The notes under the pieces: model-generated
What the model saw: only the letters and a program-made list of their open reading frames with translations
What the model was told of the DNA's origin: nothing
The model's database searches: none
Assembly (NCBI GenBank): GCA_964017235.1
Contig: OZ024929.1
Coordinates: 64,141,603 to 64,205,602, forward strand
Reading direction: 5' to 3'
From: Sabellastarte sp. h YS-2021
Taxonomy: Eukaryota > Annelida > Polychaeta > Sabellida > Sabellidae
Length of the DNA stretch: 64,000 nucleotides
Position numbers and translations under genes: made by a program
Part shown: in pieces, positions 10,295 through 56,420 of the stretch
Layout of the letters: each line of letters opens with the position of its first letter
How positions within the stretch are numbered: position 1 is the first letter of the stretch

Positions 10295-10296
10295 CT

Positions 10297-12790: not shown

Positions 12791-13140
12791 ATCTCCCAAA
12801 AGTGGTTCACTCCCCACGTGGACCTATTTGCCACTCATCTGAACCACAAGCTTCCACTGTACGTTTCTCCTATCCCAGACCCAAAGGCCTGGGACATAGA
12901 TGCTCTAAACATAGATTGGACGGGTCTCACTGCCTATGCTTACCCTCCAACGGCTCTCCTTCACAGGGTGATCCAAAAAATCAGACAATGCAATTGTCTG
13001 ATCATACTAATAGCCCCAGGCTGGCCAGGGATGCCCTGGTTTTGGGACCTAGTGCAGCTCTCAACAGAGATCCCACTACAACTCCCCGTGTCGACAACAC
13101 TCCTCAAACAGTCCCACAACTACGTGTTCCACAGGAACCC
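12791..13140 (+). pseudogene. DIRS-1 methyltransferase-like region between RNase H and YR
   Basis: In the RNase H frame, after one stop, comes VDLFATHLNHKLPLYVSP, then WDIDALNIDW, LTAYAYPPTALLHRVI and LIILIAPGWPGMPWFWDL. The same block occurs in DIRS-2 at 22510-22760 (DALSLPWEDLDAYAFPP, LIAPGWPNMPWFW). DIRS elements are described as carrying a Dam-like methyltransferase domain at this position. I place it there by order and conservation; the catalytic assignment is not provable by eye. Confidence 0.6.
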
Positions 13141-14535: not shown

Positions 14536-17500
14536 ATTATATCCCCAGACGAAAGTCGGGGATATATTGGATTCAGGTCCGTCGCGCCGCCGCCGCCGCC
14601 GCCATAGAAATTTCCTTGTGGACGCGATAACTCAAAAACAAATTAATATTTTTTTTTCAAACTTGGTACACATGTTAAGGGTGCCCAAAGGAAGATCCCT
14701 ATTTTAAGGTGACCTTAAACTCCCAGTAAAAAAGAACTTATGGCCACCTTAAGGTCAGAAATTGCACTTTTGGCCACTTAGAGCCCTGTAGGTCACAAAC
14801 TATGATGCTCAGCTGGCTGAAATTTTACCTGACAACACATTAATATGTTCTTAGTACATGTGCCAAAAATCATGACTTTAAGTTGAGGAGAAAATTGTGT
14901 TTGAGGCCCATAAATACCCCCACTTAGGGATTTTTTGCTATACTTTTCACATATTTTGCCCTATAATTTGGAAGTGATAATTCTGATGAGTCTCAAACTG
15001 CGCTAGGTATAACTTTGATATGTAATCCTTGTCTGTAGAAAATTTTAGGGCTGTAGGTTTACCCAAAGGGGTCGACTTAAGGTCTCAAAAGTGCCCACAG
15101 AGACCCAATTTATGCACTTTTTGCCACTTTCAAGCACTGTAGCTTTCAAACTATGTCTCTCATCTAAGTTAAATATCATCTGGGAATATATCTATGTGTT
15201 TTCTTATATGTGCCCCAACATTTAGGCCTTTAATAGACAGTTAACCTGTGTATCAGGACCATAAACACCCACCCGAGTGACCCTTATAAGACATTTTTCA
15301 CATCTTTTTCCCTGTAACTTAGAAATGGTAAGTCTGAGAAGTTTCAAACTGTATTAGATATATATTCTGTGTGTAATCTTAGTATGTAACAGATTTTAAG
15401 TCTGAAGCTTTAATTTTGAAGGTCAAATTGAGGTCTCTAAAAGGCTCCCAAAGACCCAATATTTGGACTTTTTGCTACTTTTAAGCCCTGTGACTGTCAA
15501 ACTATGTGACTGATAGAGCTCAAATCTTATCTGAGAAGATATTAGTATGTTATTTTTATATGTGCCAAAAATTAAGGCTTTAAGAAGACATTTAACCTGT
15601 GTATGAGGACCATAAATCCCCACCCGAGTGACCATTTTTAGACATTTTTCACATATTTTTCCCTGTAACTTGGAAATGGTAAGTCTAAGAAGTTTCAAAC
15701 TGTATTAGATGCATATTCTATGTGTAATCTTAGTATGTGACAAATTTTAAGTCTGAAGCTTTAATTTGAAGGCCACATTTAGGTCTCTAGAAGGCCCCAT
15801 AAAGACCCAGTATTTGGACTTTTTGCCAATTTTAAGGCCTGTGACTGTTAAACTATGTGACTGATAGAGCTGAAATCTCATCTGGGAATACATGATTATG
15901 TTCTTTTTACATGTGCCAAAAATCAAGGCTTCAAGTAGACATTTAACCTGTGTATGAGGACCTTAAACACCCACCTGAGTGACCCTTTTAAGACATTTTT
16001 CACATATTTTGCTCTGTAACTTGGAAATGGTAAGTCTGAGAAGTTTCAAACTTTATTAGATACATATTCTATGTGTAATCTTAGTATGTAACAAATTTTA
16101 AGTCTGAAGCTTTAATTTGAAAGCCACATCGAGATCTCTAAAAGGCCCACAATGACCCAATATTTGGACTTTTTACCACCTTTAAGCCCTGTAACTGTTA
16201 AACTATGTGATTGATGGAGCTGAAATCCCATCTGGGAATGCATTATTATGTCCTTTTTACATATGCCGAAAATCAAGGTTTTTAGTAGACATTTAACCTG
16301 TGTATGAGGGCCATAGACACTCGCCCAAGTGCCTTTTTGGACATTTTTTCCGTATTTTGCCCTGTTATTTGGAAATGCTTAGTGTGACAAGTCTTAAACT
16401 GTATTATATATAATTTTTGTTTGTTATGTATGTCCCCCAAAAAGTTTCAGATCTGTAGTTTAATTGCTAAGGTCTCTTTAACAATTGTAAAATGCCCACA
16501 GAAACCCAATTTATGGATATTATGCCACTTTAAAGCCCAGTAACTGTCAAACTATGTGGGTCATAGAGCTGAAATCTTTGAATTTTTAAAAGGAAATGCC
16601 TGTCTATTTAAATTTTGAATATTAATAATGTTATGGCTATCTTAGTCTTTTAAGAACTTATTTTTGTGTGTTATACCTCTGCTTGCTGAGTTTTTCACTT
16701 TTTAAAATGAAACTGGTTAAACATATTCAAGTAGACAAAATGGACACTTTAAGTGAGCTTTAAGTCCCAATATTAATGAAATTATATCCTTATGTAGTAA
16801 AACTAGGGGATTTTTAACCCTCAACTAGCCCAGTTTTATTCAACTTGCCTCAGTTAATTTTGGCACAGCTCCTACAGTTATGAACTCATTTCAGTTGATA
16901 ATCACATACTTAAAATTCTCAATTCTTTTTGTATTTGAGTACCCCTTTTATATAGATTGTTTGTTTACCATTTATGCTCAACCCACATCCCCCACCCGGA
17001 TTCCCCCCACCCACCTCTGGGACCTCCAGCTATATTGAGTGACACTAAATAAACAAAGGTATTTAATGATATCGGATGAGAAACAAAGAACTCAATGGGG
17101 TTGCAGATCTTGTGTAATAGTGAAAGAGGTGTAGAGAAGGGGAGAGGGGTGGGGGTGGGAGGTGGTGGGCTTCATTACATATAACACAAAGGGGAGTCAG
17201 AACTGAGATTGTGTCACATATTTAGGTTGCATATATATGGACCACATATATAGGTATAGAGGAAATGAATAACTGAAAACAATTTGCAAATTCTAAAAAT
17301 AATATAATAAAATAATAATATAAACAATTTTTTTTTAAATAATATTTTATTTGTGAACAAATATAGAAACAGATATGCGCTTTTGGGATTATGAATTTTA
17401 GAATGGACATTGAATCATCAATCATTTAAATACTTTGAAGGAAGATTGAAAAATATGATGAGTTGAGTTAAAAATAATATTTTATTTGTCAACAAATATA

Positions 17501-35637: not shown

Positions 35638-37395
35638 TTTGGATTCAGGTCCGTCGCGCCGCCGCCGCCACCGCCGTAGAAATTTCCTTGTGGACGCGAT
35701 AACTCAAAAACGGATTAATATTTTTTTTTCAAACTTGGTACACATGTTAAGGATGCCCAAAGGAAGATCCCTATTTTAAGGTGACCTTAAACTCCCAATA
35801 ATAAAGAACTTATGGCCACCTTAAGGTCAGAAATTGCACTTTTGGCCACTTAGAGCCCTCTAGGTCACAAACTATGAGGCTTATCTGCCTCAAATTTTAC
35901 CTGAGAACACATTAATATATTCTTAGTACATGTGCCGAAAATCAAGACTTTAAGTTGAGGAGAAAATTGTCTTTGAGGCCCATAAAGACCCCACTTAGGA
36001 CTTTTTTCCTATATTTTTAACTTATTTTGCCCTATAATTTGGAAGTGGTAATTCTGATGAGTCTCAAACTGCACTAGATGTAACTCTTATATGTAATCCT
36101 TGTCTGTGAAAAATTTAAAGGCTGTAGGTTTACCTGTTAGGCCGACTTAAGATCTCAAAATTGCCCACAGAGACCCAATTTATGGACTTTTTGCCATCTT
36201 CAAGCACTGTAGCTTTCAAACTATGTCTCTCATCTAAGTGAAATATCATCTAAGAATATATCAATATGTTTTTCGTGTATGTACTCCAAAATTTAGGCCT
36301 TTAATAGACATTTAACCCATGTATGAGGACCATAAACACCCACCCGAGTGACCCTTTTAAGACATTTTTCACATATTTTGCTCTGTAACTTGGAAATGGT
36401 AAGTCTGAGAAGTTTCAAACTGTATTAGATATATATTCTATGTGTAATGTTAGTATGTAACAGATTTTAAGTCTGAAGCTTTAATTTGAAGGTCAAATTG
36501 AGGTCTCTGACGGGCTCCCAAAGACCCAATATATGGACTTTTTACCACCTTTAAGCCCTGTGACTGTTAAACTATGTTATTGATGGAGCTGAAATCTCAT
36601 CTGGGAATGCATTATTATGTCCTTTTTACATGTGCCGAAAATCAAGGCTTTAAGTAGACATTTAACCTGTGTTTGAGGACCATAAATCCCCACCCGAGTG
36701 ACCCTTTTTAGACATTTTTCACATATTTTGCCCTGTAACTTGGAAATGGTAAGTCTGAGAAGTTTCAAACTGTATTAGATACATATTCTATGTGTAATCT
36801 TAGTATGTGACAAATTTTAAGTCTGAAGCTTTAATTTGAAGGCCACATTGAGGTCTCTAAAAGGCCCCATAGAGACCCAATACTTGGACTTTTTGCCAGT
36901 TTTAAGGCCCATGACTGTTAAACTATGTGACTGATAGAGCTGAAATCTCATCTGGGAATACATTATTATGTTCTTTTTACATGTGCCAAAAATCAAGGCT
37001 TCAAGTAGACATTTAAACTGTGTATGAGGACCATTAACACCCACCCGAGTGACCGTTTTAAGACATTTTTCATATATTTTGCTCTGTAACTTGGAAATGG
37101 TGAGTCTGAGAAGTTTCAAACTTTATTATTAGATACATATTCTATGTGTAGTCTTAGTATGTAGCAGATTTTAAGTCTGATGCTTTAATTTGAAGGCCAC
37201 ATCGAGATCTCTAAAAGGCCCACAGAGACCCAATATTTGGACTTTTTGCCACCTTTAAGCCCTGTGACTGTTAAACTATGTGATTGATTGAGCTGAAATC
37301 CCATCTGGGAATGCATTATTATGTCCTTTTCACATGTGCCGAAAATCAAGGCTTTTAGTAGACATTTAACCTGTGTATGAGGGCCATAGACACTT
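35638..37395 (+). mobile_element. Family C element C3, left part
   Basis: It enters at 'ttggattcaggtccgtcg', just inside the family head; the terminal hairpin is missing. (GCC)n at ~35656, then five ~350-bp units. It breaks at 37395 where the LINE is inserted. It continues at 50700-50718 and 60743-62364. Confidence 0.8.
37383..37395. repeat. LINE target-site duplication, 3' side copy
   Basis: GCCATAGACACTT, identical to 50687-50699. It directly abuts the T run (A tail on the minus strand) of the LINE. Confidence 0.85.
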
Positions 37396-37558
37396 TTTTT
37401 TATTAAACAAAACAAAAACAAAGCATACAAGTACAATCATAATAATGTTTAAATGATTATGAAATCATTAGGATTTAGGATACTATTTAGGTACTGAATT
37501 AAGCAATCAGACATTACCTTATTTATACAGATATTGAGTTATTTTTACATTTTGAGAG

Positions 37559-38341
37559 TTAATTTATTCCTGGATCATTCAATAAAAACTCGCTGAACAC
37601 AGACCACGACACTTGAAATTTATCATATGTATTGTTTATTTTTGCAAAGTATTCTTGTTCAGTGTAGATATTTCTGATATAGTTTTGAAGCACATTTAAT
37701 GGTTTTGAATTTCGTGAACATTTCCAAATAAATTTTTTTCCTGCTAAAAGAGTTAAATTTTTGGGGAACATATCTAACTCATTTTCTAAAACACCAAACA
37801 AAAGAATGATTGGTGTTAAATTAATATAAATACCAAGTGATTGAAGCCATTGTCTAACATTTCTCCAGAAGTCAATAACAACAGGACAAGCAGCAAATAA
37901 GTGATAAATTGTTTCAGCAGATGTCTGACAGAAAGCACAGAAAGCACAACTGTTTATGTTAATCTTTTGTAAGTAAGCTCTAGTACCTAGAATTCTATGA
38001 CTAATACGAAATTGAAGCCAAATTAGGTCATTTCGACATATAGTTTTGAAACAATTTTTAAAGATTTTATTCCAGGTGTCATCATTTATAGTAGTGTTTA
38101 AGACATTATTCCATTTATTTCGTAATGATAAATTTTTATATTGATCATTAAGAGTTTTGTAAAAGTATTTTGAACCTTTTACCCGACTCAGTAGTACTTT
38201 TAAGTATGATGGCAGTACAGGTCTGCTGCAAGTATACTGCTTTATACTGAATTTGAGCAAATAATCTTTTAAGCATCTTTGAACTCTTAAATGTTCAAGA
38301 AAGTTAATTTTGAGACCAAATATCTGTCTTAATTCAAACAT
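37559..38341 (-). pseudogene. LINE ORF2, C-terminal domain
   Basis: The 260-residue reading carries the typical end of L1-like ORF2: FRISHRILGTRAYLQKINI and then a Cys/His motif (CAFCAFCQTSAETIYHLFAA followed by Cys), and W/F-rich segments (FWRNVRQWL). Coding probably extends upstream of its first Met: the same frame reads PLDILKPDGSSLSMFELRQI up to ~38410, where a frameshift separates it from the RT frame. It ends at TAA 37559-37561, shortly before the A tail. Confidence 0.85.
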
Positions 38342-38385
38342 ACTTAAAGAACTGCCATCAGGTTTAAGTATATCTAGTGGAGTAT

Positions 38386-39906
38386 TTATTCCAACTCTAC
38401 ACCAATGTGGATAAAAAGAAGTTCAGTAGAAATGTGAAAATTGTACCACAACGGCACAGTTAATGTTTCAGAATGACAAACAGGTAGTCGAGTCAAAAAG
38501 GTATACCATGCATTAAATACTTCTTTCCAAAAAATATTGGCCGTTCGTTCTGATAAATATTTTGACCACAAAGGACCAAAATTATATAATCTCTCCACAT
38601 TTGTTGTAGATGCCAAGAGTTTTACCCATGGAGATTCAGAAGTAAACAAGCGTTTTATCCAAACTAGTTTTTGAGACATAATGTAATTTTCTATGTTTAT
38701 CATCTGGAGACCTCCCTCAATGTAGTTGTTAGTTATTTGCCTCTTACTTATTTTATGTGGTTTGTCATCCCAGATAAAGGAGTACATTAGTTGGTTTAAC
38801 TGAGAAATGAATTGTTTGCTTGGAGATGAAATTGAAGAAAGTAAATTATTTAGACTACTAATTACAAAAGTCTTGACAATGCTTATTTTCCCAATTGGAG
38901 TCAAGTTCCTCCTTCTCCATTTACTTAAAATTTTTGCGATATCATTCAACAGAGTTGTGTAGTTAATCGAAGGGATATCATCAATATCCACTGAAAAATT
39001 TAGTCCAAGCAACTTAAATTTGGTTGTGCCCCAATCTAGTTGCTGTTTAATTTCAAACTTATCTCTTGAATGTTTTTTCCTACCAAGCCATATTATTTTG
39101 GTCTTTTCAGTATTTGCTTTTAGCCCGGATAATGATCCAAATATTTCTAACGTGTTTAATGCTGCAACTAGAGAATCCTTGCTCCCATCTAAGAACAAAG
39201 TAGTATCATCGGCAAACTGTGTCATTTTGAAGTTTATATTATTAAGAGAAATACCTTTAATATATATGTTATTGTCTACCATACAAAATAAAACTTGGGC
39301 ACAAAGCAAAAACAAGTAAGATGATATGGGATCACCTTGTCTGCAACCCCGTTCTATATTAAAGGTGTGTGATAAAAAGCCTGATTGAAGTACTGAAGCT
39401 TTAATATCATTATTGAAAATGGTTATCCACTTACAGAAGCTCTTGTCAAATTTCAGTAATTTCAGCAGTTTATACAGGAAGACCCATGAGACAGAATCAA
39501 AAGCTTTCCAAAAGTCGATTAGCATTAATTGTCCTGGTAGGTTGTTTTGATCAAGATACTGCATAATGTCATACACGAGACGTGTACTATCCCCAATAAA
39601 ACGTCCTTCTAGAAATCCAGTTTGGGCTTTGGAAACTAATTTGGGTAGAACAGATTTCAGTCTGTTTGCTATTGCAGCTGAGGCCATTTTATATACAACT
39701 GATAATAAAGAAACTGGACGCCAATTCTTAAGAAATTCCCTTGGTTTGTCACCTTTTGGTAGGCAACTTATTATGCAAGTTCTCATTGAGATTGACATCT
39801 TACCAGATGTATATGCAAAATTGAGAGCCCTCAACACAAAATATTTCAGTTTACCCCAAAATACCTTGAAAAACTCAGCAGGGAAGCCATCAACTCCTGG
39901 ACATTT
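38386..39906 (-). pseudogene. LINE ORF2, reverse transcriptase domain
   Basis: It starts at the H4 junction with CPGVDGFPAEFFKVFWGKL (RT motif 0). Then come FLKNWRPVSLLSVVYKMASA (motif 1-2), QTGFLEGRFIGDSTRLVYDI, LIDFWKAFDSVSW (motif A; Trp replaces the usual Glu next to Phe), RGCRQGDPISSYLFLL (motif B), MTQFADDTTLFLDGS (motif C, FADD), and SGLKANTEKTKIIWLG (motif D/E). This is L1/Tx1-clade architecture. It ends in a frameshift near 38415. Confidence 0.92.
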
Positions 39907-40299
39907 ATTAAGCGTCCCGCAAGGGACGCTTGTTTGTGTATGGGAGAGCTTCAGGCTCCGCCGGCTCCGCCGGCTCCGCATTTTGTTTTCCTTATAACTC
40001 TGTAACCGTTAGGCGGATTCTTTTCAAATTTGGCAGGTTTAGGCAGTAGCCCTGGGGAATTTTTTTGAATATGCTGCAGTGACATTTCAACCAATCAGAG
40101 AGGTCACATGACCAAAAATGTCTTTTTTTCGATGGGGAAGCTTGTCCGGATGATAACTTGAAAGGAATTTTATCAATTCACCTGAAACTTGGCAAATACA
40201 TTCATTCTATTAAAATCTGGAAATCATTAGATTTTGGCATTGATTGGTCAAGAAATGGCCGAGTAATTAATGATTAATTAATCATTACGAATTTTCCAA

Positions 40300-41580
40300 A
40301 TAAGGAAAACACAAAAATGCTTATATCTCGAAAACCGTGCTAGATAGAGCGATTTCGACGAAATTTTTGACCCCCAGGGTATTTCTGCGGAGTAGTTTTC
40401 CCAATTTTCAAAAAATTTTTGTCTCGCCCAAAATGGCGGCCATTTTGAATTTTCGAAATTTTCGCAAAAATTGCAAAACACAAAAATGCTTATATCTCAA
40501 AAACCGTGCTAGATAGAGCAATTTCGACAAAATTTTTGAGCCATAGGATATCTCTGCGGAGTACTTTTCCCAATTTTCAAAAAAATTTTGTCTCGCCAAA
40601 AATGGCGGCCATTTTGAATTTTCGAAATTTTCGCAAAAATTGCAAAACATAAAAATGCTTATATCTCGAAAACCGTGCTAGATAGAGCAATTTCGACAAA
40701 ATTTTTGAGCCATAGGATATCTCTGCGGAGTACTTTTCCCAATTTTCAAAAAAATTTTGTCTCGCCAAAAATGGCGGCCATTTTGAATTTTCGAAATTTT
40801 CGCAAAAATTGCAAAACATAAAAATGCTTATATCTCGAAAACCGTGCTAGATAGAGCGATTTCAACGAAATTTTTGACCCACAGGGTATCTCTGCAGAGT
40901 AGTTATCCCAATTTTGAAAAAAATTTTATCTCGCCAAAAATGGCGGCCATTTTGAATTTTTCGCAAAAATTGCAAAACATAAAAATGCTTATATCTCGAA
41001 AACCGTGCTAGATAGAGCAATTTCGACAAAATTTTTGAGCCATAGGATATCTCTGCGGAGTACTTTTCCCAATTTTCAAAAAAATTTTGTCTCGCCAAAA
41101 ATGGCGGCCATTTTGAATTTTCGAAATTTTCGCAAAAATTGCAAAACATAAAAATGCTTATATCTCGGAAACCCTGCTAGATAGAGCGATTTCGACGAAA
41201 TTTTTGATCCACAGGGTATATCTGCAGAGTAGCCATGCCAATTTTCAAAAAAATTTTGTCTCGTCAAAAATGGCGGCCATTTTGAATTTTCGAATTTTTC
41301 GCAAAAATTGCAAAACATAAAAATGCTTATATCTCAAAAACCCTGCTAGATAGAGCGATTTCGACGAAATTTTTGACCCGCAGGGTATCTCTGCAGAGTA
41401 GCCATGCCAATTTTCAAAAAAAATTTCTCTTGCCAAAAATGGCGGCCATTTTGAATTTTCGAATTTTTGCGCAAAAATTGCAAAACACAAAAATGCTAAT
41501 ATTTCGAAAACCGTGCTACGTAGAGCGATTTCGACGAAATTTTTTATCTTCAGGGTATCTCTGCAGAGCAGCTATCCCAA
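40300..41580. repeat. 169-bp tandem array in H4
   Basis: About 7.5 units with near-constant 169-bp spacing, one with a 14-base deletion near 40955. Each has 'cttatatctcgaaaaccgtg', 'ctagatagagcgatttcgac', 'cagggtatctctgcagagta' and the near-palindrome AAAATGGCGGCCATTTTG. One more degenerate unit or two lie at 45450-45830, on the far side of the 133-bp array. Confidence 0.92.
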
Positions 41581-41581
41581 A

Positions 41582-44500
41582 GAGCTTTCACTTGGTGAAG
41601 TTTCAGACCCATAGCTAATTGCTCACCTACTCAAAAAGAGTAAATGCGAATTATCTCTAAAAGTATTGCAGATAGCCAATTTTTCTCAAATAACTCATTC
41701 ACCTACTTTTGGGAGAGCTTTCACATGGTGAAGTTTCAGACCCATAGCTAATTATTTACCTACTCAAAATGAGTAAATGCTAATTATCTGTAAAAGTATT
41801 GCGGATACCCAATTTTTCTCAAATAACTCATTCATCTACTTGTGGGAGAGCTTTCACATGGTGAAGTTTCAGACCCATAGCTAATTACTCACCTACTCAA
41901 AATGAGTAAATGCGAATTATCTCTAAAAGTATTGCAGATAGCCAATTTTTCTCAAATAACTCATTCACCTACTTTTGGGAGAGCTTTCACTTGGTGAAGT
42001 TTCAGACCCATAGCTAATTACTCACCTACTCAAAATGAGTAAATGCGAATTATCTCTAAAAGTATTGCAGATAGCCAATTTTTCTCAAATAACTCATTCA
42101 CCTACTTTTGGGAGAGCTTTCACAAATGTGAAGTTTTAGACCCATAGCTAATTACTCACCTACTCAAAATGAGTAAATGCGAATTATCTCTAAAAATATT
42201 GCAGATAGCCAATTTTTGTCAAATTAATCATTCACCTACTTTTGGGAGAGCTTTCACTTGGTGAAGTTTCAGACCCATAGCTAATTACTCACCTACTCAA
42301 AATGAGTAAATGCGAATTATCTCTAAAAGTATTGCAGATAGCCAATTTTTCTCAAATAACTCATTCACCTACTTTTGGGAGAGCTTTCACATGGTGAAGT
42401 TTCAGACCCATAGCTAATTACTCACCTACTCAAAATGAGTAAATGCGAATTATCTCTAAAAGTATTGCAGATAGCCAATTTTTCTCAAATAACTCATTCA
42501 CCTACTTTTGGGAGAGCTTTCACTCTGTGAAGTTTCAGACCCATAGCTAATTACTCACCTACTCAAAATGAGTAAATGCGAATTATCTCTAAAAGTATTG
42601 CAGATAGCCAATTTTTCTCAAATTAATCATTCACCTACTTTTGGGAGAGCTTTCACTTGGTGAAGTTTCAGACCCATAGCTAATTACTCACCTACTCAAA
42701 ATGAGTAAATTCGAATTATCTGTAAAAGTATTGCAGATAGCCAATTTTTCTCAAATAACTCATTCACCTACTTTTGGGAGAGCTTTCACTTGGTGAAGTT
42801 TCAGACCCATAGCTAATTACTCACCTACTCAAAATGAGTAAATGCGAATTATCTCTAAAAGTATTGCAGATAGCCAATTTTTCTCAAATTAATCATTCAC
42901 CTACTTTTGGGAGAGCTTTCACTTGGTGAAGTTTCAGACCCATAGCTAATTACTCGTCTACTCAAAATGAGTAAATGCGAATTATCTCTAAAAGTATTGC
43001 AGATAGCCAATTTTTCTCAAATAACTCATTCACCTACTTTTGGGAGAGCTTTCACTTGGTGAAGTTTCAGACCCATAGCTAATTATTCACCTACTCAAAA
43101 TGAGTAAATGTGAATTATCTCTAAAAGTATTGCAGATAGCCAATTTTTCTCAAATAACTCATTCACCTACTTTTGGGAGAGCTTTCACTCTGTGAAGTTT
43201 CAGACCCATAGCTATTTATTCACCTACTCAAAATAAGTAAATGCTAATTATCTGTAAAAGTATTGCGGATACCCAATTTTTCTCAAATACTCATTCATCT
43301 ACTTGTGGGAGAGCTTTCACATGGTGAAGTTTCAGACCCATAGCTAATTACTCACCTACTCAAAATGAGTAAATGCGAATTATCTCTAAAAGTATTGCAG
43401 ATAGCCAATTTTTCTCAAATAACTCATTCACCTACTTTTGGGAGAGCTTTCACTCTGTGAAGTTTCAGACCCATAGCTAATTACTCACCTACTCAAAATG
43501 AGTAAATGCGAATTATCTCTAAAAGTATTGCAGATAGCCAATTTTTCTCAAATTAATCATTCACCTACTTTTGGGAGAGCTTTCACTTGGTGAAGTTTCA
43601 GACCCATAGCTAATTACTCACCTACTCAAAATGAGTAAATGCGAATTATCTGTAAAAGTATTGCAGATAGCCAATTTTTCTCAAATAACTCATTCACCTA
43701 CTTTTGGGAGAGCTTTCACTTGGTGAAGTTTCAGACCCATAGCTAATTACTCACCTACTCAAAATGAGTAAATGCGAATTATCTCTAAAAGTATTGCAGA
43801 TAGCCAATTTTTCTCAAATTAATCATTCACCTACTTTTGGGAGAGCTTTCACTTGGTGAAGTTTCAGACCCATAGCTAATTACTCGTCTACTCCAAATGA
43901 GTAAATGCGAATTATCTCTAAAAGTATTGCAGATAGCCAATTTTTCTCAAATAACTCATTCACCTACTTTTGGGAGAGCTTTCACTCTGTGAAGTTTCAG
44001 ACCCATAGCTATTTATTCACCTACTCAAAATGAGTAAATGCTAATTATCTGTAAAAGTATTGCGGATACCCAATTTTTATCAAATACTCATTCATCTACT
44101 TGTGGGAGAGCTTTCACATGGTGAAGTTTCAGACCCATAGCTAATTACTCACCTACTCAAAATGAGTAAATGCGAATTATCTCTAAAAGTATTGCAGATA
44201 GCCAATTTTTCTCAAATAACTCATTCACCTACTTTTGGGAGAGCTTTCACTCTGTGAAGTTTCAGACCCATAGCTAATTACTCACCTACTCAAAATGAGT
44301 AAATGCGAATTATCTCTAAAAGTATTGCAGATAGCCAATTTTTCTCAAATTAATCATTCACCTACTTTTGGGAGAGCTTTCACTTGGTGAAGTTTCAGAC
44401 CCATAGCTAATTACTCACCTACTCAAAATGAGTAAATGCGAATTATCTGTAAAAGTATTGCAGATAGCCAATTTTTCTCAAATAACTCATTCACCTACTT

Positions 44501-45440
44501 TTGGGAGAGCTTTCACTCTGTGAAGTTTCAGACCCATAGCTAATTACTCACCTACTCAAAATGAGTAAATGCGAATTATCTCTAAAAGTATTGCAGATAG
44601 CCAATTTTTCTCAAATTAATCATTCACCTACTTTTGGGAGAGCTTTCACTTGGTGAAGTTTCAGACCCATAGCTAATTACTCACCTACTCAAAATGAGTA
44701 AATGCGAATTATCTGTAAAAGTATTGCAGATAGCCAATTTTTCTCAAATAACTCATTCACCTACTTTTGGGAGAGCTTTCACTTGGTGAAGTTTCAGACC
44801 CATAGCTAATTACTCACCTACTCAAAATGAGTAAATGCGAATTATCTCTAAAAGTATTGCAGATAGCCAATTTTTCTCAAATAACTCATTCACCTACTTT
44901 TGGGAGAGCTTTCACTTGGTGAAGTTTCAGACCCATAGCTAATTATTCACCTACTCAAAATGAGTAAATGTGAATTATCTCTAAAAGTATTGCAGATAGC
45001 CAATTTTTCTCAAATAACTCATTCACCTACTTTTGGGAGAGCTTTCACTCTGTGAAGTTTCAGACCCATAGCTATTTATTCACCTACTCAAAATGAGTAA
45101 ATGCTAATTATCTGTAAAAGTATTGCGGATACCCAATTTTTATCAAATACTCATTCATCTACTTGTGGGAGAGCTTTCACAAATGTGAAGTTTCAGACCC
45201 ATAGCTAATTACTCACCTACTCAAAATGAGTAAATGCGAATTATCTCTAAAAGTATTGCAGATAGCCAATTTTTCTCAAATAACTCATTCACCTACTTTT
45301 GGGAGAGCTTTCACTTGGTGAAGTTTCAGACCCATAGATAATTATTCACCTACTCAAAATGAGTAAATGTGAATTATCTCTTAATAGTATTGCAGATAGC
45401 CAATTTTTCTCAAATAACTCATTCACCTACTTTTGGAAGA
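41582..45440. repeat. 133-bp tandem array in H4, ~29 units
   Basis: The unit includes 'gagctttcacttggtgaagt', 'ttcagacccatagctaatta', 'ctcacctactcaaaatgagt', 'aaatgcgaattatctctaaa', 'agtattgcagatagccaatt' and 'tttctcaaataactcattca'. Successive starts at 41582, 41715, 41848 and 41981 give 133 bp. Variants at fixed places (TTGGTG, ATGGTG or TCTGTG; AACTCATTC or TTAATCATTC; GCAGATAGCC or GCGGATACCC) recur in order. Confidence 0.95.
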
Positions 45441-45953
45441 CCTTTCACACACGAAAATGAAAAATTGTGAATATCTCGGAAAAGCTATTTCTTCTGCTTT
45501 AATGCTCGGCGGGAGATACACACCACGGCAGTGGTCTTGACAAAAATGTTTGTCTCCCCAAAAATGGTGGCCATTTTGAATTTTCAAAGTTTTTGCAAAA
45601 CACAAAAATGCTTATATCTCGAAAACCGTGCTATATGGAGCGAACTCAACAAAATTTTGGGCCTGCTGGGTATCTCTGCAGAGTAGCCATGCCAATTTTC
45701 AAAATATTTTTGTCTCGCCAAATATAGCGGACATTTTTTATTTTTTTATTTTTTGCAAAACACAAAAATGCTTGTATCTTGAAAACCGTGCTAGATAGAG
45801 CAGACTGCGCTGACTTTGGTTGCCACAACAGTATAAGGCTAGAAACGAAGCATTTTCTTAATACTTTAGCACTCACCTTTATATCCTTTTCGGGACGCTT
45901 TGTTTTTGCTATGCAAAAACATTATCTTTTTTTTTGCGAGCGATCCTCTAGTT

Positions 45954-46620
45954 ATTTTTCATTTTAAGTAAGACCTGGCTAAGTTCTTCAAGTTTTAATT
46001 CCCCTTCTAATGAGGCTGATTCCAAATGGTTTAACTTTCTAAAATTAGCTTTCACAATTATAGATTCCAAGCCGTCAGAATCTAGAGATACATTGTTTTG
46101 TGCTGAAAATAGTTTACTGTAAAAATGTTGTACTTCTTTCAAAATATCTTTTTGGTCTGTTATTTTTTTGCCAGAATCAAGTTGAACACACCCAATGGTT
46201 TTTTCAGTGTAGTTATACTTCTCAAGAGAGCAAAAATATTTAGACGGCCTTTCTCCCTCATTTAACCATTGTGCCCTTGACCTAATGACAGTTCCCTGAA
46301 TAGCAATATCCCTAATTTTTTCTAGTTCTTTCTTTTTATCCTCAAGTGTGTCTGAATCCTGTGGACATTGATTGGCCTCTAGGAAGGCTATTTCATTTAC
46401 TAGCTTATTTTCTAACTCGCAGGTTTGCCTTTTCTGGAAGGAGGCAAATTTAATACTTTCACCTCGAATTCGAAGCAATAGCATTTCTAAAAATTCTCCA
46501 TCAGTTATGGTAAAGTTAACCAAATTATCAGGTATATTTAATAAGTAATCCAAAGCGTAGACTGGAATAGCATATTTTTGTTTTTCCTCTTGTATTATAG
46601 AATTCACTAGTTCAAGGTAG
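45954..46620 (-). pseudogene. LINE ORF2, linker between endonuclease and RT
   Basis: KSYLELVNSIIQEEKQKYA begins the frame; then LLRIRGESIKFASFQKRQ, RAQWLNEGERPSKYFCSLEK (a hallmark L1-like block before RT), DQKDILKEVQHFYSKLFSAQ and LKLEELSQVLLKMKN. It ends at the H4 junction. A one-base slip at ~46620 separates it from the endonuclease frame. Confidence 0.88.
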
Positions 46621-47404
46621 CTTTTTCTTTTAGGAGACTGCAATTAAATTTCCACAGTCCCTTTCCCCTTTCAAATTTGCTCGGCATTATTTTAAGCTGA
46701 ATACTTGAATGATCACTTCTGTAGCTAGGATTAATGTTACAGGCAGTTATGATATCTTGCATTGCATTTGAAACCAAGAAGTAATCGAGTCTTGCTTGTT
46801 GAAGTGGATTTTTTCGCCGCCATGTATATCGTTTTAAGGAAGGATGAAGAAAACGAAAAATGTCATTAAGATTGTAAATATTTATAATGTCCAATAATAC
46901 TTTTCTAGATCGTGGATTATTAATATGTTTATATTTGTCACAGTCTAACAGAGGGTCAAGAATTAAATTAAAATCACCGACAACCATTGCAAATGTCTGA
47001 GTGTTGGATTCTAAAATTCCTTTCACGTTCTCAAAAAACTGTGGACAGTCCTTATTACGAGCATATATGTTAAGTAATTTAAGTGTTATATCACCTAATT
47101 TCAAATCAAGAGATATCATATTACCTTCGTTATCTTTATAAACTGCTGCAATTGAATAATCAACTTTTGTGGCCAGTAATATAGCAACACCCCTTGAATT
47201 TGAAGATTCACCATTTAAAATACATTCTCCATTCCACATTGATCTAATTATAGGTTCATCTTTTGGAGTCCAGTGTGTATCTTGCAGACAAATGATACTA
47301 GCTTTGGTTTTACTAAAGTAATCTATCACATCTAATCGTTTTTGTTTATTTTGAAGCCCTTGACAGTTTGCCGATAATACTATCAATTCATCAGCCTGTG
47401 ACAT
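46607..47404 (-). pseudogene. LINE ORF2, endonuclease domain
   Basis: The Met at 47404 opens MSQADELIVLSANCQGLQNK, the standard N-terminal strand with catalytic Asn. It continues with SIICLQDTHW (metal-binding Glu position; Asp here), VVGDFNLILDPLLD (GDFN), RYTWRRKNPLQQARLDYFLV (RxDYxL) and SYRSDHSSIQL (catalytic SDH). This is an exonuclease-endonuclease-phosphatase fold nuclease that nicks target DNA for target-primed reverse transcription. The last ~5 residues of this reading follow the frameshift. Start choice: upstream sequence is repetitive and non-coding. Confidence 0.9.
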
Positions 47405-50353
47405 TTAAAGGCAGATTGGACCCTCCAGATAGCAGCAGCAGCAGCGAATGAATAAGTAAATTCAAAATAGATAGCAATAGAAAATAAGTTGAACAATTCA
47501 TACAACAATAAAGTTCATGTGTCGTGGTCTGTACAAACAATATACTGTTAATCTGACAAAGTACCTTCTCAATTTTATCATAGCATCTAACATTGTACAA
47601 GTATGCTAATAAAAACATATTGACAAAAAGTAACACCACAGAAAAAAATGGAATTATGACAAAAAGAGAAAGAAAAGGGTGTTTAAAGCAACATATCTAT
47701 AAAGCATATAAAGCATAATGATGTTATTTCAGTAAATGAATTACTTTCTCAAACATTTATACTACACAAGGAAAAGTAACATTTATAGTATTTAACTTGT
47801 TAGTTAAAATATATTTGAAAAATTACCATATATGATTTCAATGAATACAGTGTACTTTTTATAAAAAACATAATATTCATACAGTTGTGAAGTAGTAGTA
47901 TTAAACATATTAGTCTATTTAACACCACATGGGATTTATATAACTACAGTGTACTTTTTATAATGCATTTATTTCAAGATTTAGTTATGAATCATCAGAG
48001 TTTAACACAACATAACAGATTCTCCTTTCCACAGATATTGGCAGATTAGTCTTTGGTCTAAGTAAGAATTGTTTAAAAAATCTTTTTTGAGTATAAATTG
48101 AATTATCCCCATTATAAAGGAAAGTTTTAATTAATTACACAACTGATTGACCCAATCACTTGCGTATCACTAGTTTTACATATTTTTGTAAAATAATATT
48201 AATTATACCAATATTAATCCCATTATGAAAAGGGGTGTTTCAAACAATTTATTTATAATACCTAATGTTACACATAAGTTAGTTTCCACAACGTTTATAA
48301 AGATAGTATCATTTATAGTATTCAACATTCTAGTCAATATATTTAAAAAGTTACCATGTGTGATCTGAAGAGGTGCAGTGTAGTTTTCATAATGTACACT
48401 TTTATGTACTATGGCTCTGAATTACCAGTGTTGACTTGTATTTAAAGCCAGAATTATAATGAATGAATTAAATTACATCAAGGTATATATAAAAGAAACT
48501 AGCATTTGTAGTATTAAATACATTAGCCAACGTTTTTACCACCTGTGATTTACGTGACTACAGTGTTTTTTTCCTAACGTATGCATTTTGAGGTTTAGTT
48601 CATAATGTATGCCTATGAAGATTTAGGTATAAATCACCAGAGTTAAACATAACATGCGGATTCCCGCACTCATAGGTAGGGGTTGCGTAATCATTGGCAT
48701 AATGAGAGTATTAATTTTCAAAGCAACATAAGTCTTTTTTACCAATAATTTTACAAATATTTATAAAATTAGTATTATTACGTACTTTTGTAAAATAGCA
48801 TTTTTAAATATCACTTTTCATGAACATGAAAATAGAGGTGCTAAACATTAAGTTATAGTTTCTATGAACTTCAATTACAACTGAGCTAGCAAACTGAAAA
48901 AAAAAAGAAATCAATAAAAAATACTGAGACTTAGTAACATATAATCAGGCATTTACATAATGTGTTTTATTTTATCACCTTGATATTTATTTCCAAAACA
49001 ACACAGAGTGTGACAACAAACTTAACAATCATTAGTGAAAAGGTAAATTTGAATCGGTTACATAACTGATTAACGCATCCACTTTATGTACCATTAATTT
49101 TTACCCATTTTTATGAACCAGCCTTAGGTATTTTTTTTTGTTAAAAGTAGCATTATTAAGTATCAGTAATCATGGATACCAAAATGCAAGTGCTAATTGA
49201 TCAGTAGTATTTTTACTATGAATTACAACAGGTAAGACCAAAACATAACACTAAAAAAATGTTTTTAGGCACTTACATAGTGTATACTATTTTAGTACTT
49301 AATTTATTATCTCCCAAACAAGAGAAAGCCCTTTTACTTATTCCTAAATGAATTCATTATCACTAGAAAAACAAACCACCTTTAAAATTAGCATTACTAT
49401 GTGTATATTGAGTTAATACAATTGTTGCTGCAAAACATTATTATATTGTAAAATAAAAAGGTCAAGGGCACATAGTAATATACAAGCTGGACTATCCTCT
49501 GTAAAAAGGTAAGTTTAAATTTGTTACACAACTGATAAACACATTATCTGTGTGTACCACAAATTTTATATATATTTCTACAAATAGTATTATTAAGTAC
49601 TTCAATAAAATACCATTTCTAATTACCAGTTTTCATGAACATTAAAAATTGAGGTGCTAAACATCAAGTTATAGTTTCTATGAACTTCAAGTACAACTGA
49701 GAGCTAGCAAAATGAAGGAAATGAGTAAAAAAAAAATAACTAGTAACATGTAATCAGGCAGTTACATAGTGTTTATTATTTTATCACCTTAGTATTTATT
49801 TCCGAGACAACACAGAGTGTGACAACAATCTTAACAATCATTAGTAAAAAGATAAATTTGAATTGGTTACATAACTAATTAACACATCCACTTTATGTAC
49901 CATTAATTTTTACCCACTTTATAAACTGACCTTGTTAAGTATTTTTTTTTTTAAAATAGCATTATTAAGTATCAGTATTCATAGAAACAAAAATACAAGT
50001 GCTAATTGATCAGTAGTCTTTACTATGAACTACCATAGGTAAAACTGAAAGATCGCACTAAAGAGATGTTATCAGGCACATACATAGTGTATATTATTCT
50101 AGTACCTAATTTATTATTTCTCAAGCAAAAGAAAGCCCTTTTACTTATTCCCAAACTAAATCATTATCACTAGAAAAACAAAGCACTTTTAAAATTAGTA
50201 TTACTATGTGTACATTGAGTTAATACAACTGTTGCTACAAAACATTATTCTAAATAAAAAGTCTTCAAAAGAATTATAACATTTCTTTCAGGTAACATAT
50301 CATAAAGTTAGTTTAATAATATGGTGGTCAGTTCTCCAGTTTTAAAGTTATAT
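47405..50353 (-). other. LINE segment between the NADAR ORF and ORF2
   Basis: It is AT-rich, without a long ORF. It contains two copies of an ~808-bp direct repeat (for example 48830-49420 against 49638-50220; 'cacatccactttatgtacca' at ~49077 and ~49881) and a weaker ~650-bp repetition further left (47935 against 48545). A (CAG)4 run lies at ~47433. Confidence 0.6.
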
Positions 50354-50713
50354 TCATAGACTGTCTCTTAGTTCAACCAGCATTCTGCCAAGTTTATTTG
50401 CGCCCTTCCATTTAGTAGGGTTCCAAAGATCGGTGCTTGCCAATGACACTCCAGCACCCCAAAAAGGGTCAAATGGATTGGCTTCAACAAGCATTGAATT
50501 GCCTGTTCCCTTTAAAACTTTTGCTAAGTCTGGATTTTGTTCAAATTTGGCACTTATTCCAACTTGCATGTATTGTTCCCGGACTTCTTTCCACTCACCA
50601 GCTTTAAATCCTTTAATGTTTTTTCCTATTGATTTTGCATTCACTGGATCATCAGTACTCCTGATTGCTACAGCTGATAGACTACAGCCATAGACACTTG
50701 CCCATTTTGACAT
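50354..50713 (-). CDS. Partial NADAR (YbiA-like) domain ORF at the LINE 5' end
   Basis: The 119-residue reading holds the C-terminal two-thirds of a NADAR domain: AKSIGKNIKGF (26-36), W41, KFEQNPDLAKVLKGTGNSML (56-75), VEANPFDPFWGAG (76-88; compare the family E-A-x-P-x-D-x-x-W-G-x-G) and WKGANKLGRMLVELRDSL (102-119; family W-x-G-x-N-x-LG-x-x-L-M-x-x-R). NADAR proteins such as YbiA are N-glycosidases; members act on riboflavin intermediates or on ADP-ribose linked to nucleic acid or protein. The N-terminal part is absent. Codons 1-9 (MSKWASVYG) lie in the target duplication and family C DNA, and codon 10 is the first LINE base. The domain therefore belongs to a LINE ORF cut by 5' truncation, and the Met is accidental. 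Whether it is ORF1 of the LINE is inference. Confidence 0.8.
   Translation of the reverse strand: MSKWASVYGCSLSAVAIRSTDDPVNAKSIGKNIKGFKAGEWKEVREQYMQVGISAKFEQNPDLAKVLKGTGNSMLVEANPFDPFWGAGVSLASTDLWNPTKWKGANKLGRMLVELRDSL
50687..50699. repeat. LINE target-site duplication, 5' side copy
   Basis: GCCATAGACACTT, identical to 37383-37395. It continues into family C sequence (TGCCCA...GACATTTTTT, 50700-50718), which matches C2 at ~16322-16350 with a short deletion. Confidence 0.85.
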
Positions 50714-51139: not shown

Positions 51140-54100
51140 AAAGTGTTGCATTTAGAGCATTTTGTTAAAATATGTTGTTCAGCTACTTTTTCCATAGCTA
51201 CAACATGGTGAGTAACTTGGGTGTCTATCTCCATAGCTAAGTGAGTAATAGCTACTTTTGGGCTTTTCAGTAACTTCCATCATGAGTAAACTCACTTGTA
51301 ACTTGAAAACTATTGCATTTAGAGAATTTTGTATAAATATGTTATTCAGCTACTTTTGGGTCAGCTATAACATAGTAAAATTTCAGACCTGTAGCTCATG
51401 CCATAGCTGAGTAATAGCTACTTTGAGGTTATCCCTGTTGAGTAAATCACTTATAACTTGAAAAGTATTGCATTTACAGTATTTAGTTTCAATATGTTAT
51501 TCACCTATTTTGGGGTCAGCTATAACTTAGTGAAGTTCCAGACCTGTGGCTCATTGCATAGCTGAGTAATAGCTACTTTGAAGTTCTCACTATTGAGTAA
51601 ATCAGTTTTAATTGGAAAACTATTGCATTTACAAAAATTTGTGTAAATATGTTATTCAGCTACTTTTGGGTCAGCTATAACATAGTGAAGTTACAGACCT
51701 GTACCTCATGGCACAACTGAGCAATAGCTATTTTCAGATTATCACTGTTGAGTAAATCAGTTGTAACTTGAAAACTATTGCATTTACAGTGTTTTGCTTA
51801 AATATGTTGTTCACCTACTTTTGGATCAGCTATAACATAGTAAAAATTCAGACATGTAGCTCATTGCATAGCTGAGTAATAGCTATTTTCAGGTTCTCAC
51901 TATTGAGTAAATCAGTTGTAACTTGAAAACTATTGCATTTGGAGATTTTTGTATAAATATGTTATTCACCTACTTTGGGGTCAGCTATAACATAGTAAAA
52001 TTTCAGACCTGTAGCTCATTGCATAGCTGAGTAATAGCTACTTTGAGGTTATCACTGTTGAGTAAATCACTTATAACTTGAAAATTATTGCATTTTGAGT
52101 ATTTTGTTTCGTGTATTGACCTATTTTGGGGTCAGCTATAACTTAGTGAAGTTGCAGACCAGTGGCTCATTGGATAGCTGAGTAATAGCTACTTTGAAGT
52201 TCTCACTGTTGAGTAAATCATTTGTAATTGGAAAACTATTGCATTTACAGAAATTTGTGTAAATATGTTATTCAGCTACTTTTGGGTCAGCTATAACATA
52301 GTGAAGTTACAGACCTGTAGCTCATGGCACAACTGAGCAGTAGCTATTTTCAGGTACTGACTGTTGAGTAAATCAGTTGTAACTTGAAAAATATTGCATT
52401 TGGAGTATTTTGTTAAAATATGTTGTTCACCTACTTTTGGGTCAGCTATGACATAGTGAAATTACAGACCTATAGCTCATGGCATAACTGAGCAATAGCT
52501 ATTTTCAGGTTCTCACTATTGAGTAAATCAGTTGTAACTTGAAAACTATTGCATTTGGAGAATTTTGTATAAATATGTTGTTCACCTACTTTTGGGTCAG
52601 CTATAACATAGTAAAATTTCAGACCTGTAGCTCATTGCATAGCTGAGTAATAGCTACTTTTAGGTTATCACTGTTGAGTAAATCACTTATAACTTGAAAA
52701 GTATTGCATTTAGAGTATTTAGTTTCAATATGTTATTCACCTATTTTGGGGTCAGCTATAACTTAGTGAAGTTCCAGACCAGTGGCTCATTGCATAGCTG
52801 AGTAATAGCTACTTTGAAGTTCTCACTATTGAGTAAATCAGTTGTAATTGGAAAACTATTGCATTTACAGAAATTTGTGTAAATATGTTATTCAGCTACT
52901 TTTGGGTCAGCTATAACATACTGAAGTTACAGACCTGTAGCTCATGGCACAACTGAGCAATAGCTATTTTCAGATTATCACTATTGAGTAAATCAGTTGT
53001 AACTTGAAAACTATTGCATTTACAGTGTTTTCCTTAAATATGTTGTTCACCTACTTTTGGATCAGCTATAACATAGTAAAAATTCAGACATGCAGCTCAT
53101 TGCATAGCTGAGTAATAGTTATTTTCAGGTTCTCACTATTGAGTAAATCAGTTGTAACTTGAAAACTATTGCATTTGGAGATTTTTGTATAAATATGTTG
53201 TTCACCTACTTTTGGGTCAGCTATAACATAGTAAAATTTCAGACCTGTAGCTCATTGCATAGCTGAGTAATAGCTACTTTGAGGTTATCACTGTTGAGTA
53301 AATCACTTATAACTCGAAAATTATTGCTTTTTGAGTATTTTGTTTCATGTGTTATGCACCTATTTTGGGGTCAGCTATAACTTAGTGAAGTTCCAGACCT
53401 GTGGTTCATTGCATAGCTGAGTAATAGCTACTTTGAAGTTCTCACTGTTGAGTAAATCAGTTGTAATTGGAAAACTATTGCATTTACAGAAATTTGTGTA
53501 AATATGTTATTCAGCTACTTTTGGGTCAGCTATAACATAGTGAAGTTACAGACCTGTAGCTCATGGCACAACTGAGCAGTAGCTATTTTCAGGTACTGAC
53601 TGTTGAGTAAATCAGTTGTAACTTGAAAAATATTGCATTTGGAGTATTTTTTTAAAATATGTTATTCACCTACTTTTGGGTCAGCTATGACATAGTGAAA
53701 TTACAGACCTATAGCTCATGGCATAGCTGAGCAATAGCTATTTTCAGGTTCTCACTATTGAGTAAATCAGTTGTAACTTGAAAAATATTGCATTTGGAGA
53801 ATTTTGTATAAATATGTTGTTCACCTACTTTTGGGTCAGCTATAACATAGTAAAATTTCAGACCTGTAGCTCATTGCATAGCTGAGTAATAACTACTTTG
53901 AGGTTATCACTGTTGAGTAAATCACTTATAACTTGAAAATTATTGCATTTTGAGTATTTTGTTTCATGTGTTATTCACCTATTTTGGGGTCAGCTATAAC
54001 TTAGTGAAGTTCCAGACCAGTGGCTCATTGGATAGCTGAGTAATAGCTACTTTGAAGTTCTCACTGTTGAGTAAATCAGTTGTAATTGGAAAACTATTGC

Positions 54101-56420
54101 ATTTACAGAAATTTGTGTAAATATGTTATTCAGCTACTTTTGGGTCAGCTATAACATAGTGAAGTTACAGACCTGTAGCTCATGGCACAACTGAGCAGTA
54201 GCTATTTTCAGGTACTGACTGTTGAGTAAATCAGTTGTAACTTGAAAAATATTGCATTTGGAGTATTTTGTTAAAATATGTTGTTCACCTACTTTTGGGT
54301 CAGCTATGACATAGTGAAATTACAGACCTATAGCTCATGGCATAACTGAGCAATAGCTATTTTCAGGTTCTCACTATTGAGTAAATCAGTTGTAACTTGA
54401 AAACTATTGCATTTGGAGAATTTTGTATAAATATGTTGTTCACCTACTTTTGGGTCAGCTATAACATAGTAAAATTTCAGACCTGTAGCTCATTGCATAG
54501 CTGAGTAATAGCTACTTTTAGGTTATCACTGTTGAGTAAATCACTTATAACTTGAAAAGTATTGCATTTAGAGTATTTAGTTTCAATATGTTATTCACCT
54601 ATTTTGGGGTCAGCTATAACTTAGTGAAGTTCCAGACCAGTGGCTCATTGCATAGCTGAGTAATAGCTACTTTGAAGTTCTCACTATTGAGTAAATCAGT
54701 TGTAATTGGAAAACTATTGCATTTACAGAAATTTGTGTAAATATGTTATTCAGCTACTTTTGGGTCAGCTATAACATACTGAAGTTACAGACCTGTAGCT
54801 CATGGCACAACTGAGCAATAGCTATTTTCAGATTATCACTATTGAGTAAATCAGTTGTAACTTGAAAACTATTGCATTTACAGTGTTTTCCTTAAATATG
54901 TTGTTCACCTACTTTTGGATCAGCTATAACATAGTAAAAATTCAGACATGCAGCTCATTGCATAGCTGAGTAATAGTTATTTTCAGGTTCTCACTATTGA
55001 GTAAATCAGTTGTAACTTGAAAACTATTGCATTTGGAGATTTTTGTATAAATATGTTGTTCACCTACTTTTGGGTCAGCTATAACATAGTAAAATTTCAG
55101 ACCTGTAGCTCATTGCATAGCTGAGTAATAGCTACTTTGAGGTTATCACTGTTGAGTAAATCACTTATAACTCGAAAATTATTGCTTTTTGAGTATTTTG
55201 TTTCATGTGTTATGCACCTATTTTGGGGTCAGCTATAACTTAGTGAAGTTCCAGACCTGTGGTTCATTGCATAGCTGAGTAATAGCTACTTTGAAGTTCT
55301 CACTGTTGAGTAAATCAGTTGTAATTGGAAAACTATTGCATTTACAGAAATTTGTGTAAATATGTTATTCAGCTACTTTTGGGTCAGCTATAACATAGTG
55401 AAGTTACAGACCTGTAGCTCATGGCACAACTGAGCAGTAGCTATTTTCAGGTACTGACTGTTGAGTAAATCAGTTGTAACTTGAAAAATATTGCATTTGG
55501 AGTATTTTTTTAAAATATGTTATTCACCTACTTTTGGGTCAGCTATGACATAGTGAAATTACAGACCTATAGCTCATGGCATAGCTGAGCAATAGCTATT
55601 TTCAGGTTCTCACTATTGAGTAAATCAGTTGTAACTTGAAAAATATTGCATTTGGAGAATTTTGTATAAATATGTTGTTCACCTACTTTTGGGTCAGCTA
55701 TAACATAGTAAAATTTCAGACCTGTAGCTCATTGCATAGCTGAGTAATAACTACTTTGAGGTTATCACTGTTGAGTAAATCACTTATAACTTGAAAATTA
55801 TTGCATTTTGAGTATTTTGTTTCATGTGTTATTCACCTATTTTGGGGTCAGCTATAACTTAGTGAAGTTCCAGACCAGTGGCTCATTGGATAGCTGAGTA
55901 ATAGCTACTTTGAAGTTCTCACTGTTGAGTAAATCAGTTGTAATTGGAAAACTATTGCATTTACAGAAATTTGTGTAAATATGTTATTCAGCTACTTTTG
56001 GGTCAGCCATAACATAGTGAAGTTACAGACCTGTAGCTCATGGCACAACTGAGCAGTAGCTATTTTCAGGTACTGACTGTTGAGTAAATCAGTTGTAACT
56101 TGAAAAATATTGCATTTAGAGTATTTTGTTAAAATATGTTGTTCACCTACTTTTGGGTCAGCTATAACATAGTAAAAATTCAGACATGTAGCTCATTGCA
56201 TAGCTGAGTAATAGCTACTTTGAGGTTATCACTGTTGAGTAAGTCAGTTATAACTTGAAAACTATTGCATTTAGAGTATTTTGTTTAAATATGTTATTCA
56301 CATAATTTTTGGTCAGCTATAACATAGTGAAATTGCAGACCTGTATGTCATGGCATAGCTGAGCAATAGCTACTTTCAGGTTCTCACTGTTGAGTAAATC
56401 ATTGTATCCACTGGATAGCT
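51140..56420. repeat. 155-bp tandem array in B1, ~34 units
   Basis: The unit has 'ttgagtaaatcagttgtaac', 'ttgaaaactattgcattt', 'ttcacctacttttgggtcag', 'ctataacatagtgaaattac', 'agacctgtagctcat' and 'ctgagtaatagctac'. Starts at 51441, 51596, 51751 and 51906 give 155 bp. A higher-order period of 1,859 bp (12 units) is present from ~52090 on. Confidence 0.95.

Follow-up and report, generated by a model that had tools for sequence, protein, structure and literature searches.

Retrotransposons that carry a NADAR domain have been described before. A 2025 paper reports the domain in the Pol protein of Ectocarpus Gypsy elements, with RNA processing as the suggested role, and, from a Repbase query, a YbiA/NADAR domain in ORF1 of several Tx1 families of long interspersed nuclear elements (LINEs) of Crassostrea gigas (PMC12477816). 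What NADARs do in eukaryotes, including animals, has been called unclear (PMC11125620). Here we analyse 64,000 nt of DNA from the annelid Sabellastarte sp. h YS-2021 (contig OZ024929.1, positions 64,141,603 to 64,205,602; the window, below), in which an open reading frame (ORF) at 50354-50713, on the minus strand, encodes part of a NADAR. This frame is a broken remnant of ORF1 of an L1/Tx1-type LINE; in less damaged copies the NADAR is linked to the LINE, nearly always keeps its catalytic Glu, Lys and Glu and is under purifying selection.

A search of the genome (1.79 Gb, 647 contigs) with the window's NADAR fragment gave 1,836 first-look candidates, of which 150 were scored, 129 of them without an internal stop; 20 loci were fetched from these matches (labels of the form L0xx). 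Ten of the 20 have both an ORF1 frame of 420 codons or more and an ORF2 frame of 1,200 codons or more, separated by 1-4 kb, including L028, where the ORF1 frame resembles LINE sequence in its C-terminal part alone; in the other ten the frames are broken or partly missing. NADAR was found at the C-terminus of all nine ORF1s scanned with Pfam (E 7e-38 to 1.5e-43), and a profile of 11 ORF1s matched the NADAR structures 8bau (E 4e-30) and YbiA 2b3w (E 2e-23) over its C-terminus and human LINE-1 ORF1p (2ykp/2yko, E 3e-6) over the coiled coil and RRM. ORF1p is thus almost certainly ordered as coiled coil, L1-like RRM, a short C-terminal region ("CTD", the stretch from RRM to NADAR, a name given by position only) and NADAR. 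The earlier note on this DNA, made from the letters alone, had taken NADAR for a domain at the 5' end of the LINE, a placement that has to give way to the C-terminus of ORF1p in view of the other copies.

An L1-like ORF2 was seen downstream by tblastn in 18 of the 20 fetched loci; in a 19th (L009) it falls just outside the DNA fetched, and in L024 none was seen. Both the endonuclease (PF03372) and the reverse transcriptase (RT; PF00078) were present in all four ORF2s scanned, and the best solved match of the L010 ORF2 is human L1 ORF2p (E 4e-81). Judged by its sequence features, namely an APE-type endonuclease with RT, a coiled coil with RRM and a target-site duplication, the element is assigned to the L1/Tx1 type, a label that covers both the L1 and the Tx1 clades. 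The top-scoring endonuclease, PDB 2v0r ("LTX"), we take to be a hairpin-exchange variant of human L1 and not evidence for Tx1. The spacer between the two ORFs is 2,960 bp long in L010 and matches itself (96-809 to 904-1624, 84% identical), while the distance from NADAR to endonuclease recurs within subfamilies (1,865; 2,614; about 2,955 bp) and differs between them. Groups of equal-scoring matches with long frames suggest recent activity. Between ORF1 and ORF2 of L022 there is a frame (3686-4765) with RT-like motifs, judged by eye, which is probably a nested insertion.

The consistency of the linkage was followed with two further queries, the RRM of one ORF1 (1,171 candidates) and the endonuclease of ORF2 (7,370 candidates), 150 matches being scored for each; all queries came from NADAR-bearing elements, and more distant relatives lacking NADAR may exist. 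Among the matches listed, 108 of the 150 RRM matches are followed on their own strand by a NADAR at a distance of 0-400 bp, with no listed NADAR within 3 kb of an RRM on the wrong side or strand. Sampling every fifth of the remaining 42 revealed a NADAR in eight of eight, each with a stop, frameshift or loss. A NADAR-fragment match was found no more than 10 kb upstream of the endonuclease in 26 of 150 cases among the matches listed (28 of 150 with both lists of NADAR matches combined), and on the wrong side in none. Seven of the 122 endonuclease matches without a listed NADAR upstream were inspected: four (L091-L094) have lost their 5' part up to a point within the inter-ORF spacer, one (L096) has an ORF1 that carries NADAR, and two (L095, L097) had no ORF1 in the roughly 3 kb seen upstream. 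The linkage between NADAR and LINE is real, and the element is common in this genome. The check proposed in the earlier note, whether full-length relatives place NADAR ahead of ORF2s of one kind and show purifying selection (see below), came out in its favour, and full-length relatives without NADAR, which it had named as counter-evidence, did not appear among the copies examined.

The active site was compared with that of 8bau by printed alignment (chain position minus two gives the paper's number). The 39 ORF1 rows represent 35 loci, four of them entered twice (L002/L009, L004/L010, L007/L011, L008/L012), and were reduced at under 85% identity to 20 types with pairwise identities of 39-75%, counts of which avoid the duplicates. 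At the positions of E43, K50 and E125, the rows have Glu in 39/39, Lys in 36/39 and Glu in 39/39, and the types Glu in 20/20, Lys in 19/20 and Glu in 20/20, with all three kept jointly in 19 of the 20 types. The residues of the E. coli C7 NADAR on which catalysis depends correspond to these positions (PMC11543638), E43 and K50 having been paired with E88 and K95 of that protein by spacing in the present analysis. Equally well kept are W89 (20/20 types), D130 (20/20) and W133 (19/20), which contact the pyrophosphate in 8bau (PMC11543638). The PF08719 match, the catalytic Glu and Lys and the Glu in the last strand (Glu, and not Asp or His, defines the YbiA subfamily; PMC11125620, PMC11543638) place the domain in that subfamily, and the sequence implies a YbiA fold. 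The conserved active site supports enzyme activity, and the ORF1p NADAR is probably a working catalyst.

Ratios of nonsynonymous to synonymous substitution (dN/dS) were obtained pairwise by the Nei-Gojobori method; saturation affects many pairs, in some of which dS is infinite, and those quoted have dS under about 2. The pair L021/L022 gave 0.10 for NADAR, 0.12 for RRM and 0.10 for ORF2, and L010/L021 gave 0.29 for NADAR and 0.18 for RRM, with ORF2 at 0.10-0.12 in three pairs. Between subfamilies, unsaturated pairs range from about 0.1 to 0.35 for NADAR (highest in L015/L036 and L034/L038) and reach 0.40 for RRM (L019/L027). Purifying selection thus acts on NADAR with a strength of comparable order to that on the other parts of the element. 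Higher NADAR ratios in young pairs (L022/L032, 0.43; L004/L006, 0.32) are expected, because copies decay after insertion.

In a first NADAR tree (not counting L028, whose row was out of frame) 21 LINE NADARs form one clade with support of 97/98, and in a second tree 18 of 19 do so (99/98), the divergent L096 falling outside with weak support (91/61). The pairs (L010,L011) and (L021,L022) recur in all three trees, those of NADAR and RRM being poorly resolved. The NADAR-bearing ORF1s go with two well-separated ORF2 lineages (100/100; L019, L026, L027 and L028 versus nine others), so the association either predates the split or has moved between lineages.

The genome also holds a divergent class of stand-alone NADARs, which make up its 38 top PF08719 matches, with scores of up to 168 bits. 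Their frames are 167-179 codons long; 3 of the 38 contain a stop, and 2 have a listed LINE part no more than 15 kb away. The earlier note had also named the segment being found alone as counter-evidence: this was not seen for the window segment itself, though the divergent NADAR does stand alone elsewhere. In the tree the class forms a long branch among rows from prokaryotes and viruses, and a topology with one clade of stand-alone and LINE rows is not rejected (p-AU 0.159), so the two kinds of NADAR may derive from one or from two acquisitions. The four stand-alone copies fetched (L087:2944-3447, L088, L089:2920-3447 and L090) all lie within a further dispersed repeat, which contains tandem repeats of ~166 bp and could be a gene family, a transposon or a viral insertion. 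A BIR-RING frame lies 0.9 kb away in L089, and L088 includes a frame of unknown kind that is 445 codons long or more.

The LINE copy in the window is a damaged member of this family. Pfam finds PF08719 in its ORF with E 6.5e-30 (residues 10-119; profile 54-162 of 163), bearing out the NADAR call of the earlier note, while the plus-strand reading of the same coordinates holds 10 stops. The copy is 98.9% identical in DNA to L010 over 37394-39910 and 45952-50677, which agrees with the proposal in that note that the domain lies inside a retrotransposon and was cut by 5' truncation. About 320 ORF1p residues are gone, including the N-terminal third of NADAR, and these residues are found in other LINE copies. 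With the positions of the first catalytic Glu and of the Lys gone, NADAR activity is not expected of what remains. The parts of the copy and its flanks are as follows.

37396..50677, minus strand: 5'-truncated L1/Tx1-type LINE copy, 3' end at the low coordinate (identity to L010)
39911-45951, no strand: stretch of 6,041 bp interrupting the LINE (gap in the L010 match)
37383..37395, no strand: target-site duplication, LINE 3' side, end of the satellite array 35928-37393 (exact match, empty-site alignment)
50687..50699, no strand: target-site duplication, LINE 5' side (exact match, empty-site alignment)
50678..50686, minus strand: nine filler bases, codons 10-12 of the window ORF (L010 aligns only from 50677)
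50687..50713, minus strand: codons 1-9 of the window ORF, flanking satellite (peptide WASVYG also in frame 16112-16378)
50354..50677, minus strand: ORF1 3' end, last 107 codons and stop, partial NADAR (PF08719, alignment to other ORF1s)
47405..50353, minus strand: inter-ORF spacer, ORF1 stop to ORF2 start, containing two copies of a ~720-bp segment (cross-matches between window and L010)
46607..47404, minus strand: ORF2 endonuclease part, frame broken in the window copy (PF03372, E 1.2e-13)
45948..46643, minus strand: ORF2 segment from endonuclease to RT (L010 DNA match; L010 protein)
38386..40008, minus strand: ORF2 RT part; the frame extends past the LINE above 39910 (PF00078, E 1.2e-33)
37559..38422, minus strand: ORF2 C-terminal part (L010 match)

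The 13-bp duplication GCCATAGACACTT, already reported in the earlier note, is exact at both ends of the LINE (37383-37395 and 50687-50699), and the A-rich 3' end AATAAAAAA precedes it. With up to one mismatch the motif matches four times in the window versus 0.13 expected; two of these matches (5054 and 16310) are satellite units with one mismatch, present because the target of the LINE was satellite. The empty site can be seen as well: once joined, the flanks can be aligned to 351-bp satellite units that run on without interruption at about 5,050 and 16,310, with 8 gap bases on the side of the right flank. LINE homology begins at 50677, and the nine bases between it and the duplication match neither. 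The exact boundary proposed between codons 9 and 10 is thus incorrect: codons 1-9 are target satellite, as the note said, but codons 10-12 are filler and only codons 13-119 are LINE. The in-frame run from satellite into LINE is fortuitous. A similar fortuitous in-frame junction occurs in L028, where the frame ahead of NADAR is the ORF of an RT/RNaseH element; by eye, the LINE copies of L014, L020, L021 and L028 adjoin or lie inside such elements, which resemble the one at window 10171-14349 that we take to be DIRS-like. Tandem arrays in the window comprise 51283-56406 (155-bp unit x 33), 35928-37393 (the 351-bp unit, the LINE target) and 41581-45448 (133-bp unit x 29, within the stretch that interrupts the LINE).

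As to what the domain would do, we propose that the coiled coil and RRM of less damaged copies would coat LINE RNA, like L1 ORF1p, and that the C-terminal NADAR would hydrolyse N-glycosidic ADP-ribose conjugates in the LINE ribonucleoprotein (RNP). The most likely substrate would be ADP-ribose on guanine bases of LINE RNA or cDNA, the removal of which would keep a modified template from blocking reverse transcription, and the opponent would be an ADP-ribosyltransferase of the host or of a rival. We give a probability of roughly 0.45 to this reading as a whole, in which an enzyme that hydrolyses guanine-ADP-ribose is held on the LINE RNP and cleans its own template. NADARs are reported to remove ADP-ribose from guanine in DNA (PMC11543638); among hydrolases of three superfamilies, only NADARs take it off guanosine in RNA, and they do not act on phosphate-end conjugates (PMC11833690). 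An activity that ADP-ribosylates DNA at guanine-N2 is known from six edible clams, the enzyme purified being CARP-1 (PMC11209040), and by analogy the present host might have a comparable writer, against which the LINE NADAR may act in counter-defence. A bolder version, which we regard as doubtful, is that the RNA-coating protein of a LINE lineage became an ADP-ribose eraser, with NADAR acquired early and kept while the lineage split into 20 or more types and two deep lineages of ORF2, and that guanine ADP-ribosylation of RNA or cDNA by the host is an anti-transposon defence, of which our literature search turned up no example.

Several observations weigh against the guanine hydrolase. D86 is kept in none of the 20 types and R93 in 12, and R79 is Lys in 16 types and Arg in one. 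Invariant ligand positions (4 of 9) exceed the invariant columns overall (26 of 150) only modestly (hypergeometric p 0.049). In the L027/L033/L037 family the NADAR frames are open throughout and have Ala at the catalytic Lys position (a Lys lies one residue before the Ala, making these a natural active-site variant). Reversal of the CARP-1 mark by NADAR was assumed, not shown, in PMC11543638, which weakens the clam analogy. The Scabin-like writer family PF22596 had no match in this genome, nor in any of 14 control genomes, and its absence here thus carries no weight either way.

Alternatively, the enzyme could act on small molecules, either diffusible ADP-ribose derivatives of immune signalling (cyclic ADP-ribose and its kin) or damaged metabolites, which would be in line with NADARs that act on riboflavin intermediates and with the phage NADARs proposed to act on soluble ADP-ribose derivatives (both PMC11543638, PMC9503650). 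D86 is the contact to the adenosine ribose, and its absence suggests that the ligand may differ from ADP-ribose; on the other hand, the pyrophosphate contacts W89, D130 and W133 are kept, and a diffusible target would give no clear reason for fusion to an RNA-binding protein. We consider this explanation unlikely. About as unlikely, in our estimate, is that NADAR is kept for binding or folding, as an ADP-ribose reader, an RNA-binding module or a multimerisation domain of ORF1p. The family with Ala for Lys fits such a role, since its domain is conserved (NADAR dN/dS 0.14 for L027/L033, from few changes at dS 0.10), but Glu, Lys and Glu occur together in all but one of the 20 types, whose pairwise identities are 39-75%, and this argues for catalysis.

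A further suggestion, raised as a possibility for the Gypsy and oyster Tx1 elements by the Ectocarpus authors (PMC12477816), is that NADAR helps to process the RNA intermediate; we find this improbable for the present LINE. The simplest explanation of all, a host NADAR gene or other repeat that happens to lie beside a LINE, could draw on the separate stand-alone class, but ORF1 is a single continuous frame in many copies, and neither the RRM linkage (108/150) nor the endonuclease linkage (26/150), counted among the matches listed, has any case on the wrong side. We reject a stand-alone host gene or chance neighbour on these continuous frames and the orientation-specific linkage, and give it a negligible probability.

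Compared with known systems, the present LINE shares with human LINE-1 the coiled coil and RRM of ORF1p and the endonuclease and RT of ORF2p; to our knowledge human ORF1p has no NADAR, and the inter-ORF spacer of human LINE-1 is short, unlike the spacers of about 1-4 kb seen here. The Phytophthora nicotianae NADAR 8bau and E. coli YbiA 2b3w belong to the same family by sequence and share the catalytic Glu/Lys/Glu positions; they are, however, stand-alone proteins, and the LINE NADARs lack D86 and mostly have Lys for R79. NADARs of the DarTG1 toxin-antitoxin type differ in two respects, as the last-strand residue is Glu, not Asp, in 20 of 20 types and the neighbour is a LINE ORF2, not DarT. An added enzyme domain in ORF1p also has a parallel in the esterase that ORF1p of other non-LTR retrotransposons bears (PMC3905857). 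Those elements belong to other LINE clades, and their esterase is unrelated to NADAR. With the present case, the set of domains known from LINE ORF1 proteins gains one that resembles an enzyme. Because this LINE lineage has many copies and keeps the active site, the role of NADAR in retroelement biology becomes directly testable, and if our proposal is true, nucleic-acid ADP-ribosylation would be a front line between eukaryotes and transposons. Animal positive-strand RNA viruses with NADAR and Macro in their polyproteins (PMC9503650) are likewise RNA-templated selfish elements with a proposed counter-defence, although they are viruses and not genomic retrotransposons. The Ectocarpus Gypsy elements are likewise retrotransposons that carry a NADAR. 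Closest are the Tx1 LINEs of Crassostrea gigas, which have NADAR in ORF1p and fall in the same broad group by their authors' label only. The NADAR-LINE pairing was thus already noted for oyster, in a brief remark (PMC12477816), and earlier mentions are possible, our literature search having covered a minority of subscription papers and no bioRxiv preprints; relative to that remark, the present analysis adds the place of the domain within ORF1p, the linkage counts and the evidence on active site and selection.
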